From Desulfotomaculaceae bacterium (lineage in GTDB: Bacteria > Bacillota > Desulfotomaculia > Desulfotomaculales > Pelotomaculaceae): a stretch of 64,000 bases of DNA. The translations under genes were made by a program, and so were the position numbers. Shown here one piece after another: positions 7,133 through 42,989 of this stretch; positions within the stretch are counted from its first letter, which is position 1; each line of letters opens with the position of its first letter. The stretch spans positions 26,430 to 90,429 of the forward strand of contig JAQVGZ010000004.1 of NCBI GenBank assembly GCA_028696455.1, written 5' to 3'. The notes under the pieces are model-generated. The model ran no database searches, was not told the origin of the DNA, and saw nothing but the letters and a program-made list of their open reading frames with translations.

Positions 7133-7265
7133 CTCGACCAATTGCACGCCTTTTTTTGCTTATAATCATGTTGTATAAAAGGAATGAATGCAATAATGAC
7201 GAATAATTACAGGGAAAAACTTGTTAATTATTATCGATCGATCTGGAAGACGAGGAGGCTTTAAG

Positions 7266-8057
7266 ATGAGTGTAAATCTGGCAATTATTGGTGGTACTGG
7301 AGTTTATGATCCTGATATAATGACAGACCCGCAGGAAGAGACGGTTTCCACTCCATATGGCGAGGTCCGGTTGATTGTGGGAAGCTTCCACAATAGGAAA
7401 GTGGCTTTTATGAACCGTCACGGAACCGGGCACTCAGTTCCACCGCATTTAGTAAATTATCGGGCTAATATAGCAGCCTTAAAAAAACTGGGGGTGAAGA
7501 GTGTATTATCTACGGCCGCAGTGGGATCACTTAATCCATCCATGCAGCCGGGACATTTTGTTTTCATAGATCAGTTTATTGACTTTACCAAATCACGGCA
7601 GACAACATTTTATGACGGTGGCGTTTCCGGAGTAGTACACATCGACATGACCAATCCTTACTGCGCTGAGCTTAGAGACATCCTGTCCAGAGCAGCCCGC
7701 AGCCTGGGGTTTTTTTCACACGCTATGGGTACATATATTTGCACGGAAGGACCACGATTTGAAACCGCCGCAGAAATTAAGATGTACCGGCTCTTTGGTG
7801 GTGATTTGATTGGAATGACCGGTGTGCCCGAGGCGCCGCTGGCCAGAGAGGCTGAAATGTGTTACGCCACTATTGCTATGGTCACCAATTATGCTGCAGG
7901 CATATCCCCAACTAATCTTACGCACCAGGAAGTATTGGATACTATGGCGCAAAACAGTGAAAACATCAGAAAGCTCGTGATGCAGGCTGTTGCCTGGCTT
8001 GATCCCGAGCGGACCTGCGCCTGTCATCATGCGCTGGATCCTCTAGCTCCGGCATAA
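7266..8057 (+). CDS. mtnP: S-methyl-5'-thioadenosine / thioinosine phosphorylase (PNP/MTAP family)
   Basis: IIGGTGVYDP, NRHGTGHSVPPHLVNYRANI, TEGPRFET, MTGVPEAPLAREAEMCYATIAMVTNYAAG. Confidence 0.9.
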   Translation: MSVNLAIIGGTGVYDPDIMTDPQEETVSTPYGEVRLIVGSFHNRKVAFMNRHGTGHSVPPHLVNYRANIAALKKLGVKSVLSTAAVGSLNPSMQPGHFVFIDQFIDFTKSRQTTFYDGGVSGVVHIDMTNPYCAELRDILSRAARSLGFFSHAMGTYICTEGPRFETAAEIKMYRLFGGDLIGMTGVPEAPLAREAEMCYATIAMVTNYAAGISPTNLTHQEVLDTMAQNSENIRKLVMQAVAWLDPERTCACHHALDPLAPA

Positions 8058-8065
8058 AGATTATT

Positions 8066-9124
8066 TTGAATAAGGGGAAGATTAATTTGGAGACCATGCG
8101 CTGGTTGGAAGAAGGATGCCTGGAACTGCTGGACCAGTCCAAGCTGCCTATTGAGAAAACATACTTAAAATGCCGGGATCATCTTGACGTGGCTGCTGCC
8201 ATCAAAAGGTTGGCTGTGCGCGGGGCGCCCGCCATAGGCGCGGCGGCTGCCTATGGGCTGGTTCTGGGGACGATGAGATTACAGGCACACTCAAAAGAGG
8301 CTTTTGTCGCCGAGGTGGAAGCTATTGCTCGGGAATTGGCGGCAACCAGACCTACTGCGGTAAATCTGCGGTGGGCCATGAATCGTCTATTGCATAAACT
8401 CCGGACAGCTGAAACTAAAGATTTGCGCGAGCTAAAGACAGCTTTACTAGCAGAAGCCAAACTGATCTATCAAGAGGATATAGTCAATAATCATAAGCTT
8501 GGAGAATACGGGCAGGTACTTATTCCTTTTGGGGCACGCATCCTAACCCACTGCAATGCCGGCGCGCTGGCTACAGCAGGTTACGGGACTGCCCTGGGAG
8601 TTATCCGAGCTGCGCAAGAGGCCGGCAAAAAAGTAAGCGTATATGCGGATGAAACCAGGCCGCTGCTGCAGGGCGCCAGGCTTACCGCCTGGGAAATGCT
8701 CGATGCCCGCATCCCGGTGACCTTGCTTACTGACAACATGGCCGGTTACGCGATGGCATGCGGTAAAATCGATCTGGTTATCGTAGGTGCTGACCGGATT
8801 GCAGCAAACGGTGATACAGCCAACAAGATCGGAACTTACGGCCTGGCGGTATTAGCCTGGGCCCACCACCTCCCCTTTTATGTGGCCGCCCCGCTGTCTA
8901 CAATAGACTTAGGCCTGGTCACGGGCGCGGAAATACCAATTGAGGAGCGGGAGAGCACTGAAGTGACCCACTTTAATGGTCATCCGGTAGCGCCTGCAGG
9001 TGTCAAAGCCTGGAATCCGGCCTTTGACGTTACCCCTAACCGGTTGATTACCGCCATTATTACAGAGCGGGGTGTGATTAACCAACCTTACCTAAAAAAT
9101 CTTCAGGAATTGATGAGCATCTAG
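8066..9124 (+). CDS. mtnA: S-methyl-5-thioribose-1-phosphate isomerase
   Basis: RGAPAIGAAAAYG, ILTHCNAGALATAGYGTALGV, VGADRIAANGDTANKIGTY. Confidence 0.96.
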   Translation: MNKGKINLETMRWLEEGCLELLDQSKLPIEKTYLKCRDHLDVAAAIKRLAVRGAPAIGAAAAYGLVLGTMRLQAHSKEAFVAEVEAIARELAATRPTAVNLRWAMNRLLHKLRTAETKDLRELKTALLAEAKLIYQEDIVNNHKLGEYGQVLIPFGARILTHCNAGALATAGYGTALGVIRAAQEAGKKVSVYADETRPLLQGARLTAWEMLDARIPVTLLTDNMAGYAMACGKIDLVIVGADRIAANGDTANKIGTYGLAVLAWAHHLPFYVAAPLSTIDLGLVTGAEIPIEERESTEVTHFNGHPVAPAGVKAWNPAFDVTPNRLITAIITERGVINQPYLKNLQELMSI

Positions 9125-37364: not shown

Positions 37365-38204
37365 TTACAGCACCTGGTACTCTCCGGTAAAAACTTCTTC
37401 AGCAGGGCCAGTCATATAGACATGATTATCCGCACCCCACTCAATTAGTAACTCTCCGGTCTTTAAATGTACCGTCACCCGTCTGCTGGTAAAACCATTC
37501 AGCGCACAGGCGACTACCGCAGCGCAGGCCCCAGTCCCGCATGCCATAGTCTCCCCGGCGCCTCTTTCCCAGACTCTCATTTTAATTTCTTTAAGATTTA
37601 CCAATTGAATAAACTCAACGTTTGTCCTGTTGGGAAACGCACTGTGTCTCTCCAGGACAGGACCGACCACAGACAGGGGGATACGTTCCACATCTGGAAC
37701 TACAACAATGCAGTGAGGGTTACCCATCGATACCGCAGTAACCTGATAGGTGATCCCACCGGCCTCCAGCGGTTCACTGATAACCCGGCCAGAAGGTCCA
37801 GTCATTGGTATTTCCAGGCGGTCCAGATGTGGTTCCCCCATGTCAACCCGGACCAGTTTTACCTGATCATTGGCGGTGATCAATTCGGTATGCAGGATAC
37901 CGGCAAGGGTATCCACCTTGATCTGATTTTTATTGACAAGGCCGTGTTCAAAAAGGTACTTGGCCGCACATCGGATCGCATTTCCGCACATTTCTGCCTC
38001 ACTACCGTCCGGGTTAAAAATGCGCATTTTAACATCGGCGGTTTCCGATGGGAGAAGCACTACCAGGCCATCAGCACCAATGCCATAGTGCCGGTCACAC
38101 AAACGTAAGGCAAGTTTTGACAAATCTCTTGTTTCTATATTTTCCTCGAAACAGTCTACCAAAATAAAATCGTTACCCAGACCATGTACCTTAGTAAATC
38201 GCAA
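37365..38204 (-). CDS. dapF: Diaminopimelate epimerase
   Basis: [34 protein letters not shown]. Confidence 0.97.
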
Positions 38205-38253
38205 GTTAATGCCTCCCTACCAATATAACAAATTTTATTATATTTTATCTCAA

Positions 38254-40989
38254 TTAAACTTTTAAGAACATTACTTTTTTCCCGGCTCTGCTCGTCAGAT
38301 GGCGATGCAGGGCAACCAGGACAGCAGGCGCCGCTGCTATCACTAAAATACAAGCCCAGTGCAACCTGCTCATGTGTACAGTGTCAAAGCTCAACTGCAT
38401 TAATGGCACGTAGTTTAATAACAGTTGGAGGAAAGCTGAAATCAACACTGCCCCAGCAAGTGATAAACTCGATAATAATCTCTTTTCAAAAACAGCTTGT
38501 TCCACTGACTGGCAATTGAAAATAAAGTTTAACTGGCAAAAGACAAGCGTATTAAAAACCATAGTGCTGACTAGCGCTTCACCCCCCAGGGACAGGCCGA
38601 TCCAGAAGACTATCAGGGAGCATAAACTGATTATTAGCCCCCTGGTGACAATGTGACTGGTCAGGCCATGAGCAATAATACTTATAGCACTGTAATCTGG
38701 ATGGCGGGGAGTGCGCTTCATAACATTATGTTTACTGTAACCCATTCCCATCACTATTGCCGGGAGAGTGCCGGCAATCAAACCAAACCAAAGGATCTGT
38801 ACCGGTGTTAATAACCCAGGTTGCCCCGCTAGAGCAGCAGCAAGCACAGTTAAGACCAAACCAGCGCTGCCGGAAAGCAAATACCGAATTGCTTTCCGGA
38901 CGTTGGCATAGTAAGCCTTTCCTTCCTTGATTGCTGTGACAACATCACTAAATCGTTCATTGGCCAGAATTATATCCGCGACCTCTTTGGTTACATCAGC
39001 GCTGGTAATACCCATTGCGATCCCAATGTTGGCTGCTTTGATCGCTGGTGCGTCATCTATTCCACTGCCGACTGTAGCTACCACCTGCCCTGTTTTTTTC
39101 AAGGCCTGGATCACCCGCAGCCTTTGTTCTGGTGAAACCCTGGCATATACTGAAACCTGGCTTACCAGTTCAAGCAGCTGTCCCTCAGTCATATGATCCA
39201 GGTCAGTTCCGGTTAGCACTTTTTCATTAATAATTCCCAGCTTGTCTGCTAATGACTGCGCTGTTGACTGGTGATCACCGGTCAGAAGTACCGCCCTTAT
39301 TCCCGCCCGGCGAATGCTTTGCATAGCTTTGCCCGTGTCCGGCCTGAGTACATCGGTAATTCCGGCCAGGCCCAGAAAGACCAACTCCTGTTCTAAATAC
39401 TTATCAGAATAATCCACAATACCAGTAGGTAACGCACGCCAGGCAAGGGCCAGTACCTGCTGGGAATCCGCCGCCATTAAATCAATTTGCTGAAGCAGTA
39501 CCTCCCGCTCCCGGATGGATAGAGGCGAAGCCTTGCCATTCTTGTAGGTATGAGTACATAAACTCAAAACTATTTCAGGTGCGCCCTTGACGTAGACATC
39601 CATTTCTCCTGCGGGCCGTCGGTATACCACCGTCATTCGCTTGCGTTCTGAACTAAAGGGTAGTTCGGCTAACCGTTGCTCTTTTAGTTCTATTTTTTCG
39701 CGCCAAAAACCTGCCTTGGCGGCCATTACCAGAAGAGCCCCTTCCGTGGATTCTCCCTTTATAGACCACCCTCTGAACGGACGATTATCTGCTATCCCCC
39801 TAAAAATCCCGGTGACATCGATATCCCCCCGTTTCAAAAGGGCATTATTACATAGCGCTGCTGCTTTCATAAATAAGTGAAAATGTGAGCTACGCCTGTC
39901 TAATGAACGGCTAAAGGTACCCTTGGGATCATAACCCTCTCCGCTGACCTGAAGTATATGTCCACCTAAATAAACCTGACGTACGGTCATTTCATTTTTA
40001 GTGAGCGTTCCGGTTTTACCCGTACAAAGCACTGTAGTGCTACCGAGGCTTTCTATTGACGATAATTTGCGTATAAAAATTTTACAGTTGATCAGGCGCT
40101 TTACCCCACCAACCTGAGCCAGGTTCGGTAACGCCGGCAAATCCCAGGGACCGGCTGTTACTGCTAAACAGATCCCCAGCAGGAGCATTTGGCTAGTCTC
40201 CCCGCTGCTGCTTGTTCCCAGTGCAACTATAATCAAGCAGGCAAGAAGGAAAGGAACCGACAATGTCCTGTTCATTTGCGCCAGTTGGCTCTGGAGCGGT
40301 GTTCCCTCTTTACAGTTGGCCTTGTGTACGGCTTTATTAAATATGCCGGTCTGATGGATTACTATACCACGGCCGCTTCCCGCGGTGACCGCTGTTCCTT
40401 GATAAGCCATGTTGACAGTATCTTCAAGGGGCAGTTCAAAATCTGATAGTGGCCCGGCTGCTTTACCAACCGGACAGGACTTGCCAGTCAGCGTCAATTC
40501 ATCAATTATTAGCCGGTCTGCCTCTAGCAAGCGTATGTCAGCCGGAACCAGGGCACCCTTTTCAAGCAAAACAAGATCACCCGGAACAAGCTCAGACGCA
40601 GGTATCTTACGTTCCCGGCCATTCCTGATCACCTTGGCGTTAGCCGCAGTAAATTGTCTAAAAACTGTTTTTAAGCGTTCAGAGAGGCATTCCACAATAA
40701 AACCCAAAACTGCCCTGGCTGTTATAATAATTATAATCATAACCGCCTGAGGATAGGCGCCGGACAGTCCTAAATAAGCGCTTATAACCAGTAAGATTAC
40801 GATTAGATAACTATTAAACTGATTGATAAGGAGGTTCCAAAGCGGCATCCCGATTGCCCTGAATATTTTGTCTGAACTAAATCTAGCTCTTCTTGCCTTG
40901 GCATCGCGCTCAGACAGCCCAATCATTACGTCAGTTTGCAATTGTTCTGCAATCTCTTGCTGGGTTAAGGAGTGCCAATGCCTGGACAT
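38254..40989 (-). CDS. P2-type (PMR1/SERCA-like) cation ATPase homolog with degenerate catalytic and transport motifs
   Basis: Full-length architecture, but CTGKTGTLT, LTGKS, VGSGIDDAP and AGPWDLP replace CSDKTGTLT, LTGES, TGDGVNDAP and IPEGLP; KGAPE and FSSERKRMTVV retained. Confidence 0.93.
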   Translation of the reverse strand: MSRHWHSLTQQEIAEQLQTDVMIGLSERDAKARRARFSSDKIFRAIGMPLWNLLINQFNSYLIVILLVISAYLGLSGAYPQAVMIIIIITARAVLGFIVECLSERLKTVFRQFTAANAKVIRNGRERKIPASELVPGDLVLLEKGALVPADIRLLEADRLIIDELTLTGKSCPVGKAAGPLSDFELPLEDTVNMAYQGTAVTAGSGRGIVIHQTGIFNKAVHKANCKEGTPLQSQLAQMNRTLSVPFLLACLIIVALGTSSSGETSQMLLLGICLAVTAGPWDLPALPNLAQVGGVKRLINCKIFIRKLSSIESLGSTTVLCTGKTGTLTKNEMTVRQVYLGGHILQVSGEGYDPKGTFSRSLDRRSSHFHLFMKAAALCNNALLKRGDIDVTGIFRGIADNRPFRGWSIKGESTEGALLVMAAKAGFWREKIELKEQRLAELPFSSERKRMTVVYRRPAGEMDVYVKGAPEIVLSLCTHTYKNGKASPLSIREREVLLQQIDLMAADSQQVLALAWRALPTGIVDYSDKYLEQELVFLGLAGITDVLRPDTGKAMQSIRRAGIRAVLLTGDHQSTAQSLADKLGIINEKVLTGTDLDHMTEGQLLELVSQVSVYARVSPEQRLRVIQALKKTGQVVATVGSGIDDAPAIKAANIGIAMGITSADVTKEVADIILANERFSDVVTAIKEGKAYYANVRKAIRYLLSGSAGLVLTVLAAALAGQPGLLTPVQILWFGLIAGTLPAIVMGMGYSKHNVMKRTPRHPDYSAISIIAHGLTSHIVTRGLIISLCSLIVFWIGLSLGGEALVSTMVFNTLVFCQLNFIFNCQSVEQAVFEKRLLSSLSLAGAVLISAFLQLLLNYVPLMQLSFDTVHMSRLHWACILVIAAAPAVLVALHRHLTSRAGKKVMFLKV

Positions 40990-41189
40990 AGTAGGCTCAC
41001 CTCTCATCCAAAAATTACCTATATATCATGTTTATTCCTTTAAGATAAGAATAATGCTTTAAATATGTAAGCAATTTTTTACCCGGGCAGAATTAATTAT
41101 CTATTTTTCTTTAATTTCAAGTAGAGGATATTGTAAAATAGATTATGTGCGACTGATACATTATGCATCTAAAAGTGGAGGATAGTAAC

Positions 41190-42989
41190 ATGCCTTATGA
41201 TGGCCTGGTCCTGGCGGCAATAACTAGAGAGCTGCAGGAAAAACTGACCGGCGGGCGGATTGACCGCATACACCAGCCCACCAAAGATGAAGTCATTCTG
41301 GTAGTGCGCCGGCCAGGGTTCCGGGGCCGCCTGCTTCTGTCAGCCAATGCCCGGAGCGCACGGGTCCACCTGACCAGGACCACTCGAGAAAACCCTGCCG
41401 CTGCCCCTGTTTTCTGTATGGTTTTGCGCAAGCACCTGGAGGGCGGTCGGATTATTAGTATGCGGCAGCCCGGGCTGGAAAGGGTACTGGTCATTCGGGT
41501 CGAATCGCGAGATGAGCTGGGACGCCAGTCATATAAACAGCTCATTTGTGAAATCATGGGCAAGCACAGCAATATCCTCCTGGTTGAACCTGTTACAAAT
41601 GTCATTATAGATGGCATTAAACGTTATACGCACGCTGTCAGCAGGCACCGGGAAGTTTTACCCGGGCAGCCCTACCTGCCCCCGCCCTTCCAGAATAAAC
41701 TAAACCCGCTGCTCCTTAATGAAGAAGAGTTCCGCCAGCACTGCCTTGATGTGCCTCTGGAAACCACTCTCCTGGAACTGCTGCAGGGCGGATTTGAGGG
41801 GCTGAGCAAAGTCACCTGCCGGGAAATTATTGATCGAGCCAACCTGACGCCGGACGTTCTGCTAGATCACTGTGGCGAATACGAACTCCGCTCCCTGTGG
41901 GAACCCTTTCATCAAATTATGGCCCTGACCCGTAATGGCCGCTTCGTGCCCTGCCTAACCTGCGGTAAAAAGAGCAAGGCCATGGATTTTGCCGCCCTCG
42001 AACTTACACACACAGGGCTAGCCATAAAGCACGGAGAAATGAACGATCTGGTGGATCAGTTCTTCTATGAGCGGGAGCAGGCTGAAGTAATCAATAAGGA
42101 GCGAAACCATGTTATAGCAGTTTTAAAAAAAGAAATGTCACGGTTGGAAAAAAAGCTGGACTTGTATCGGGCAAGCCTGAAAGCTACTGCTGAGGCCAAT
42201 AAATTTAAGCTGTACGGGGAATTACTTACCGCTAATCTCTACCGGCTGAAGCAGGGGCAACCGGAGGCCTGCCTGGAAAACTATTATGAATCAAGAGAAC
42301 AGATCGTGACCATCCCCCTGGAACGCCACCGCTCACCATCGGAAAACGCCCAGCGTTATTTTAAAAAATACATCAAAGCCAGAAACACGCGCACCGCCCT
42401 AGAACCAAGGATTGCCGACGCCCGTGAAGAAATGCTCTATCTGGAAGGGGTTAAAACCGATCTCGAGCAGGCGGGCAGTTTGCCGGAACTGGCAGAAATA
42501 AAGCAGGAGTTAGCCGAGCAGGGCTATCTTAAAAGTCCCCCTCCCTCACCGGGGGGTAAAAAAAAGAAAAAAGAGCGGCTGTTGCCAAAACCCCTTTCTT
42601 TTGTCTCCTCCGACGGCATGCAAATACTGGTCGGGAAAAACAACAAACAAAATGACTATCTGACCTTAAAGTTAGCCCGGGAGAATGATCTTTGGCTACA
42701 CACCAAGGACATTCATGGTTCTCATGTGATCATCAGAACCGAAGGCAAAGAAATATCCGCCTCTACCCTGACCGAGGCGGCCGCGCTGGCAGCGTTTTTC
42801 AGTAAAGGGCGCAGCTCAACAAATGTTCCGGTGGATTACACGCTCAAAAAGCATGTCAGTAAGCCCAAAGGCGCGCGGCCGGGTATGGTCATTTACCGGC
42901 AGCAAAGAACGATTATAGCAATGCCTGATGAAAAATTGGTGGAAGAGCTTGGCGACCGCTCCAGAGAAGAAGGCAAAATTAAGGGTTAA
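41190..42989 (+). CDS. rqcH: NFACT-family ribosome quality-control protein (RqcH/FbpA)
   Basis: MPYDGLVLAAITRELQEKL, ENDLWLHTKDIHGSHVIIR, AAFFSKGRSSTNVPVDYT. Confidence 0.92.
   Translation: MPYDGLVLAAITRELQEKLTGGRIDRIHQPTKDEVILVVRRPGFRGRLLLSANARSARVHLTRTTRENPAAAPVFCMVLRKHLEGGRIISMRQPGLERVLVIRVESRDELGRQSYKQLICEIMGKHSNILLVEPVTNVIIDGIKRYTHAVSRHREVLPGQPYLPPPFQNKLNPLLLNEEEFRQHCLDVPLETTLLELLQGGFEGLSKVTCREIIDRANLTPDVLLDHCGEYELRSLWEPFHQIMALTRNGRFVPCLTCGKKSKAMDFAALELTHTGLAIKHGEMNDLVDQFFYEREQAEVINKERNHVIAVLKKEMSRLEKKLDLYRASLKATAEANKFKLYGELLTANLYRLKQGQPEACLENYYESREQIVTIPLERHRSPSENAQRYFKKYIKARNTRTALEPRIADAREEMLYLEGVKTDLEQAGSLPELAEIKQELAEQGYLKSPPPSPGGKKKKKERLLPKPLSFVSSDGMQILVGKNNKQNDYLTLKLARENDLWLHTKDIHGSHVIIRTEGKEISASTLTEAAALAAFFSKGRSSTNVPVDYTLKKHVSKPKGARPGMVIYRQQRTIIAMPDEKLVEELGDRSREEGKIKG

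Follow-up and report, generated by a model that had tools for sequence, protein, structure and literature searches.

The window analysed here is a 64,000-nucleotide stretch of a Desulfotomaculaceae draft genome (G000; 2.69 Mb in 167 contigs, 96% complete, 2.8% contamination). On its minus strand lies an open frame of 917 codons (38254..41007), free of internal stops, that encodes a full-length P-type ATPase. The start at 40989 is preferred to the one at 41007 because AGAGGTGA, a Shine-Dalgarno sequence read directly, lies 7 nt upstream of its ATG and because the alignment of the genus-mate proteins begins at the same Met. The 911 aa that follow agree with the first-pass annotation, which had described an intact frame of about 910 aa from this start. 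The gene is flanked by a divergent NFACT gene on one side and by dapF on the other, the latter followed by an aminotransferase gene, yicC, gmk and coaBC (Table 1). This NFACT/ATPase/dapF arrangement recurs throughout the order, with canonical and with degenerate ATPases at the same locus, and the window gene is therefore the order's standard ortholog changed in place. The neighbouring genes share 72-90% identity with those of relatives, in conserved synteny. In Bacillus, rqcH and yloB adjoin as well. A promoter-like TTAAAA-17-TATAAT (10 of 12 matching; 38237-38265, minus strand) can be read where the ATPase gene ends, ahead of dapF, and the number of promoter-like sites in the region is near chance.

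Table 1. Features of the ATPase locus, in window coordinates (SERCA numbering, then residue of the ORF)
Feature	Coordinates	Strand	Basis
dapF, 49 bp 3' of the ATPase gene and on the same strand; order-wide conserved neighbour	37365..38204	-	
YloB/PMR1-type P2A ATPase, catalytically dead; 911 aa with the Met at 40989 as start	38254..40989	-	ORF, family models, Pfam
M6 ligands N796 to G742, T799 to A745, D800 to G746 (WFGLIAGTLP)	38770..38784	-	codon, alignment
M5 ligands N768 to S714, E771 to L717 (SGSAGLVL)	38857..38868	-	codon, alignment
Hinge Asp D703 (TGDGVND) to Ser648 (VGSGIDD), codon AGT; changed in 13/13 degenerate orthologs	39064..39066	-	codon, alignment
N (nucleotide-binding) domain, residues ~350-590; most constrained domain in the genus	39238..39960	-	dN/dS 0.28
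KGAPE nucleotide motif, K515 kept as K474	39574..39588	-	direct read
Phosphorylated Asp D351 (DKTGT) to Gly330, codon GGT; Ser and Ala in the genus-mates	40018..40020	-	codon
M4 ion ligand E309 to Trp288 (GPWDLP), codon TGG; Trp in 3/3 genus members	40144..40146	-	codon, alignment
TGES to TGKS, dephosphorylation Glu E183 to Lys176	40480..40482	-	coordinate from ORF numbering
Shine-Dalgarno-like AGAGGTGA, 7 nt before ATG 40989	40997..41004	-	direct read
NFACT (RqcH/YloA-type), divergent neighbour kept in most of the order	41163..42989	+	

The window ATPase departs from the canonical pump at 10 of 19 key positions. In addition to the replacements in Table 1, N706 has become D651 (GAT) and K684 has become R629 (AGG). 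The losses in DKTGT, TGES and TGDGVND and the M4, M5 and M6 substitutions that had been noticed at first pass are all present in the codons, as are the preserved nucleotide motifs KGAPE, FSSERKRM and LLTGD. A Lys-to-Arg change in the KSK region had also been listed; the codon confirms it, but it belongs to the window species alone, both genus-mates having Lys. In G001 the TGES site reads TEET, with the Glu kept. The Pfam set is complete for a P2A ATPase (E1-E2_ATPase, Hydrolase, Cation_ATPase, and the N- and C-terminal domains). Nevertheless the best NCBIfam model, TIGR01522 (PMR1-type Ca2+-ATPase), scores 500.9 bits against a cut-off of 798.3, and no P2 equivalog model reaches its curated cut-off with this protein.

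From the order, 76 orthologs were extracted, 63 of them canonical at all 19 key positions and 13 degenerate; the class-wide search covered the same 113 genomes, and the frequencies given here hold for the order. Given that 63 of 76 orthologs are canonical throughout and the window ORF is off at ten positions, the substitutions are not chance. Hinge Asp703 is the sole position changed in all 13 degenerate orthologs, which we assign to groups A to F. Group A is the window genus, with GKTGT in the window species and SKTGT (with GSGGGD) and AKSGT (with GSGASD) in the two genus-mates compared (match records Desulfotomaculaceae STF1_190 and Pelotomaculum sp. PtaB.Bin104). All three genomes lack the phosphorylated Asp, the hinge Asp and the ion ligands, and the derived states that they have in common at otherwise invariant sites include E288W, I286G, D648S, N714S, N742G, T745A and D746G. 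Group B (G010) reads DKSGT and GSKFDD, and group C (G013 and G003) NKIGT and NRTEI. In group D (genus g34: L154, L155, L157 and L158, including Sporotomaculum syntrophicum), Glu183 is Ala and the hinge Asp is Glu, with the ion site intact; as Asp351 is kept in three of its four members, this group may be impaired rather than dead, and it could mark an early stage or a pump that is slow or arrested. Group E (genus g30: L159 and L161) has Asn for Asp351 and Lys for the hinge Asp, and its ion ligands are gone. Group F is one g46 genome whose congener is canonical.

The ATPase tree places groups A, B and C in a single clade (SH-aLRT 99) and requires at least four changes to account for the degenerate state. 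A tree of five neighbour genes (NFACT, dapF, pyrF, the aminotransferase gene and YicC) unites the same six genomes (SH-aLRT 100), which rules out a long-branch artefact behind the clade. Thus the same locus has been inactivated at least four separate times in Desulfotomaculales, and the single family implied by the first-pass annotation does not hold. Nor does its concerted loss of chemistry and transport ligands. All six clade genomes have substitutions at the hinge Asp, Glu309, Asn706, Thr799 and Asp800, and Asp351 is kept in group B; because G010 belongs to this clade and still has DKSGT, the loss was stepwise, with the hinge and some of the ion-site residues going before the phosphorylated Asp.

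No second P2A gene was found in the window genome, where other P-type ATPase matches are far weaker, and in G001 the only match besides the locus ATPase is a shorter, weaker one to another pump type. The active paralog contemplated at first pass therefore has no counterpart in this genome, and a spare paralog beside an active copy is ruled out, the gene being the single-copy locus ortholog. Several other degenerate lineages do possess a second P2A gene of canonical type; a backup is therefore not the general rule. A partial second canonical YloB-type ATPase lies away from the usual locus in L043 (~7217-8681; G005 contig C132), with 77% identity to the G012 ortholog over ~444 aa and an additional C-terminal scrap. 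Open frames of ~1570-1600 aa, whose product includes a P2A-like ATPase and far exceeds a normal pump in length, are scattered through the order (L050 on G002 C244, G003 C49 and G013 C20). G017 (64% complete) yielded no more than an unrelated P2A fragment, outside the syntenic position. Relatives of the window ATPase were not found in viral contigs, and no partner gene is fixed beyond the ancestral neighbours.

Selection on the gene was estimated with a purpose-written GY94/F3X4 maximum-likelihood fit. Whole-gene dN/dS is 0.40 in group A (95% profile range ~0.35-0.44; LRT against 1, 180); it is 0.28, 0.23 and 0.20 in C, D and E, respectively, and 0.21 for the pair of F and its canonical congener, against 0.05-0.14 in canonical ortholog sets. 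Ten neighbour genes from the same three genomes as group A, at similar synonymous depth, give 0.07-0.19. Constraint on the window-genus ATPase is thus clearly relaxed, at three- to eightfold the dN/dS seen in canonical pumps. At the same time, neutrality (dN/dS = 1) is rejected for all degenerate groups (whole-gene LRT 82-385) and, within the window genus, for each of the domains (LRT 18-92). Neutral simulation at 0.27 changes per site produced about 17 stops and 58% amino-acid identity; the three ORFs contain 0 stops. By parsimony the genus ancestor already lacked the ion site and the hinge, and so constraint acted after inactivation. The first-pass annotation had reasoned that substitutions shared by no ortholog, with dN/dS near 1, would signify a young pseudogene. 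Instead the losses are common to the genus and dN/dS is significantly below 1, and the retained non-pumping role that it suggested is the best reading; nucleotide sensor, partner subunit or regulator are roles that one might infer.

The remaining constraint is unevenly distributed. Among canonical-invariant columns, group A has kept 29 of 30 (97%) in the nucleotide site, 9 of 33 (27%) in the ion site and 500 of 732 (68%) elsewhere, and columns lost in all three members make up 11 of 29 catalytic and ion columns versus 42 of 254 other invariant ones (Fisher p 0.008). Domain by domain, dN/dS in group A is 0.28 for N, 0.36 for P, 0.45 for the A-domain, 0.47 for M1-4 and 0.54 for M5-10, and in canonical pumps 0.11-0.14 for N, 0.05-0.08 for P and 0.03-0.08 for M1-4. 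The N domain, less constrained than P and M1-4 in canonical pumps, has thus become the most constrained domain in the window genus, which favours a nucleotide-binding role among the candidates.

By descent and fold the protein belongs to the P-type ATPase superfamily, with A, P, N and M domains in order by Pfam and in the predicted fold. AlphaFold2, given a 30-sequence alignment, predicts a complete P-type ATPase (mean pLDDT 79, pTM 0.71). Foldseek places E1-nucleotide states of human SPCA1 at the top (TMq 0.78-0.86) and E2 states mostly lower (0.56-0.69), but this E1 preference of a predicted fold is weak evidence, because the alignment is rich in canonical pumps and AlphaFold2 tends to return an E1-like pump regardless. 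Functionally, phosphorylation of an invariant aspartate is described as common to all P-type ATPases (2023 superfamily review, PMC10654040), and in the window protein that DKTGT Asp is Gly330, with Ser or Ala in the genus-mates; the TGES Glu and the hinge TGDGxND Asp are likewise replaced (TGKS, GSGIDD). Its closest relatives and its locus make it a P2A Ca2+-ATPase of the YloB/PMR1 type by orthology, although the P2A ion ligands PEGL (M4), N/E (M5) and N/D (M6) have all been replaced. The nucleotide-site residues (the F487, R489, K492, K515 and R560 region) are present, with genus losses in 0 of 10 canonical-invariant columns. Catalytic residues gone, a fold that is kept by prediction and purifying selection together describe a pseudoenzyme, and we file the window gene as a pseudoenzyme branch of YloB-type P2A ATPases with a putative non-catalytic function. 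A literature search for pseudoenzymes among P-type ATPases, with subscription papers largely outside its coverage, returned no paper, and none of the papers searched describes a bacterial family of dead P-type ATPases.

We favour, with modest confidence, the explanation that the order's standard YloB-type Ca2+-ATPase has been inactivated in place and is kept by selection as a nucleotide-holding, non-pumping membrane protein. That confidence applies to the explanation as a whole and is weighted towards inactivation and retention, a part that taken alone is very probable; a nucleotide-dependent role is put forward more tentatively. In outline, the pump would have been inactivated in an ancestor shared by three or more related genera, the hinge Asp and part of the ion site going first and the phosphorylated Asp later, after which selection would have kept a membrane protein that no longer pumps. 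The pump cycle depends on an acyl-phosphate, and the Asp required to form it is missing, as are all tested M4, M5 and M6 ligands. The P-type ATPase fold would persist, ATP would be held in the N domain in an E1-like state that does not turn over, and nucleotide occupancy, or plain binding, might be passed to a partner, so that the protein would serve as a sensor, scaffold or regulator. ATP binding may be weak or without Mg2+, the phosphate end of the site (D351, D703) being gone. Asp mutants of animal pumps have been reported to show raised ATP affinity, an observation that plays no part in the evidence here. As for a partner, the conserved neighbours of the ATPase are RqcH/NFACT and DapF. We therefore describe the ATPase as a non-pumping, probably nucleotide-binding membrane protein whose role we infer. 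More speculative still is the general form of this proposal, that YloB-type Ca2+-ATPases of Desulfotomaculales have repeatedly turned into non-cycling, nucleotide-bound membrane sensors or scaffolds, which would show that a P-type pump has a second, pump-independent function that selection is able to maintain once pumping has gone.

The elevated dN/dS would also fit a slowly decaying relic, in which the pump became dispensable where Ca2+ need not be exported and the ORF persists mainly because stops would be polar on dapF, the aminotransferase gene, yicC, gmk and coaBC; we regard this as unlikely. The ATPase gene does come first in a series of genes on its strand, 49 bp ahead of dapF, and its A domain and membrane segments are the most relaxed. 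Calcium handling may have changed too, given that none of the seven genomes in the degenerate clade's three genera (G000, G001, G002, G003, G010, G013 and G017) has the Na/Ca-exchanger family PF01699, which 17 of 18 further members of the bacterial family possess. The exchanger is also absent in three of four group D genomes, and order-wide from 10 of 13 genomes with degenerate ATPases versus 8 of 63 with canonical ones (Fisher p 9e-6). However, only about two of four independent contrasts agree, and with four origins a sign test cannot reach significance; we therefore do not carry the co-loss as proof of lost Ca2+ efflux. It suggests, as a lead and not an established point, that Ca2+ export lost importance in the clade. 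Against decay, polarity bars stops and not amino-acid changes, yet dN/dS = 1 is rejected in all groups and in the window-genus domains, and the gene is full length in all six clade genomes where the locus was recovered. The promoter-like site before dapF is a weak hint that polarity need not act. Group E does not look like decay either: despite D-to-N and hinge D-to-K changes, its dN/dS is 0.20-0.21, tightest in P (0.09) and M5-10 (0.12). Of all the degenerate groups it makes the best case for a functional pseudoenzyme, and since its tightest domains differ from those of group A, separate lineages may differ in role.

That the protein became a passive conduit in the membrane, whether an ion leak, a channel or a lipid scramblase, through a remodelled, small-residue-rich M4/M5/M6 core appears quite improbable. 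The derived ion-site motifs GPW[D/N]LP and W.GLIAG.LP are fixed in the window genus, the replacement of both Asn796 and Asp800 by Gly is seen in groups A and E, with a separate origin in E, and palytoxin makes the Na,K-ATPase a cation channel (title of PDB 9vj0). Nevertheless, a conduit predicts that M5-10 should be the most constrained part, whereas it is the least constrained in the window genus, and the fact that none of the tested charged ligands remains speaks against ion conduction. Continued pumping, or ATP hydrolysis by other chemistry, is very hard to credit: K352, T353, T625-G626-D627 and the N domain are kept, but Asp351, hinge Asp703, Glu183 and all tested ion ligands are jointly absent, and the phosphorylated Asp is the one counted as invariant throughout the superfamily (PMC10654040). 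Finally, a young pseudogene, sequencing error or contaminating contig, conceivable in a draft assembly with some contamination, is already contradicted and has negligible probability, given derived residues common to separately assembled genomes, conserved synteny, a neighbour-gene tree that matches the ATPase tree, and dN/dS.

P-type ATPases are defined by one phosphorylated aspartate. The orthologs at this one locus form a natural series of full-length proteins, some canonical, some partly broken and some fully dead, with selection still acting on all of them. The series separates the parts of the pump needed for pumping from those needed otherwise. It raises a directly testable question, namely whether the bacterial YloB Ca2+-ATPase, adjoining the ribosome-rescue factor RqcH, has a non-pumping role. 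It is also a warning for annotation pipelines, by which such genes would be labelled Ca2+-transporting ATPases.

Compared with known systems, the window ATPase shares fold, domain order and locus with the YloB/PMR1-type P2A Ca2+-ATPases (TIGR01522; SPCA1, LMCA1), at ~50% identity to canonical orthologs, but it is without their phosphorylated Asp, hinge Asp, TGES Glu and M4/M5/M6 ligands. P6 ATPases such as mycobacterial CtpE are without the Ca2+-coordinating TM6 aspartate as well (PMC10654040); however, CtpE is a catalytic Ca2+ uptake pump that keeps PEGL. The apicomplexan guanylate cyclase with a P4-ATPase domain (PMC6592433) similarly places the module in a signalling, not purely pumping, protein, although in Toxoplasma DKTGT is kept and the module is fused to cyclase domains. 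The nearest parallel is human TMEM94/ERMA, a P-type ATPase fold with an argued loss of pumping: TMEM94 is reported to have no TGES, to show undetectable ATPase activity and to bind AMPPCP at micromolar concentrations (PMC12134183), a status contested by its description as an ER Mg2+ ATPase (PMC13322241). In contrast to the window protein, TMEM94 is eukaryotic, belongs to an unrelated subfamily and keeps its Asp, D417.
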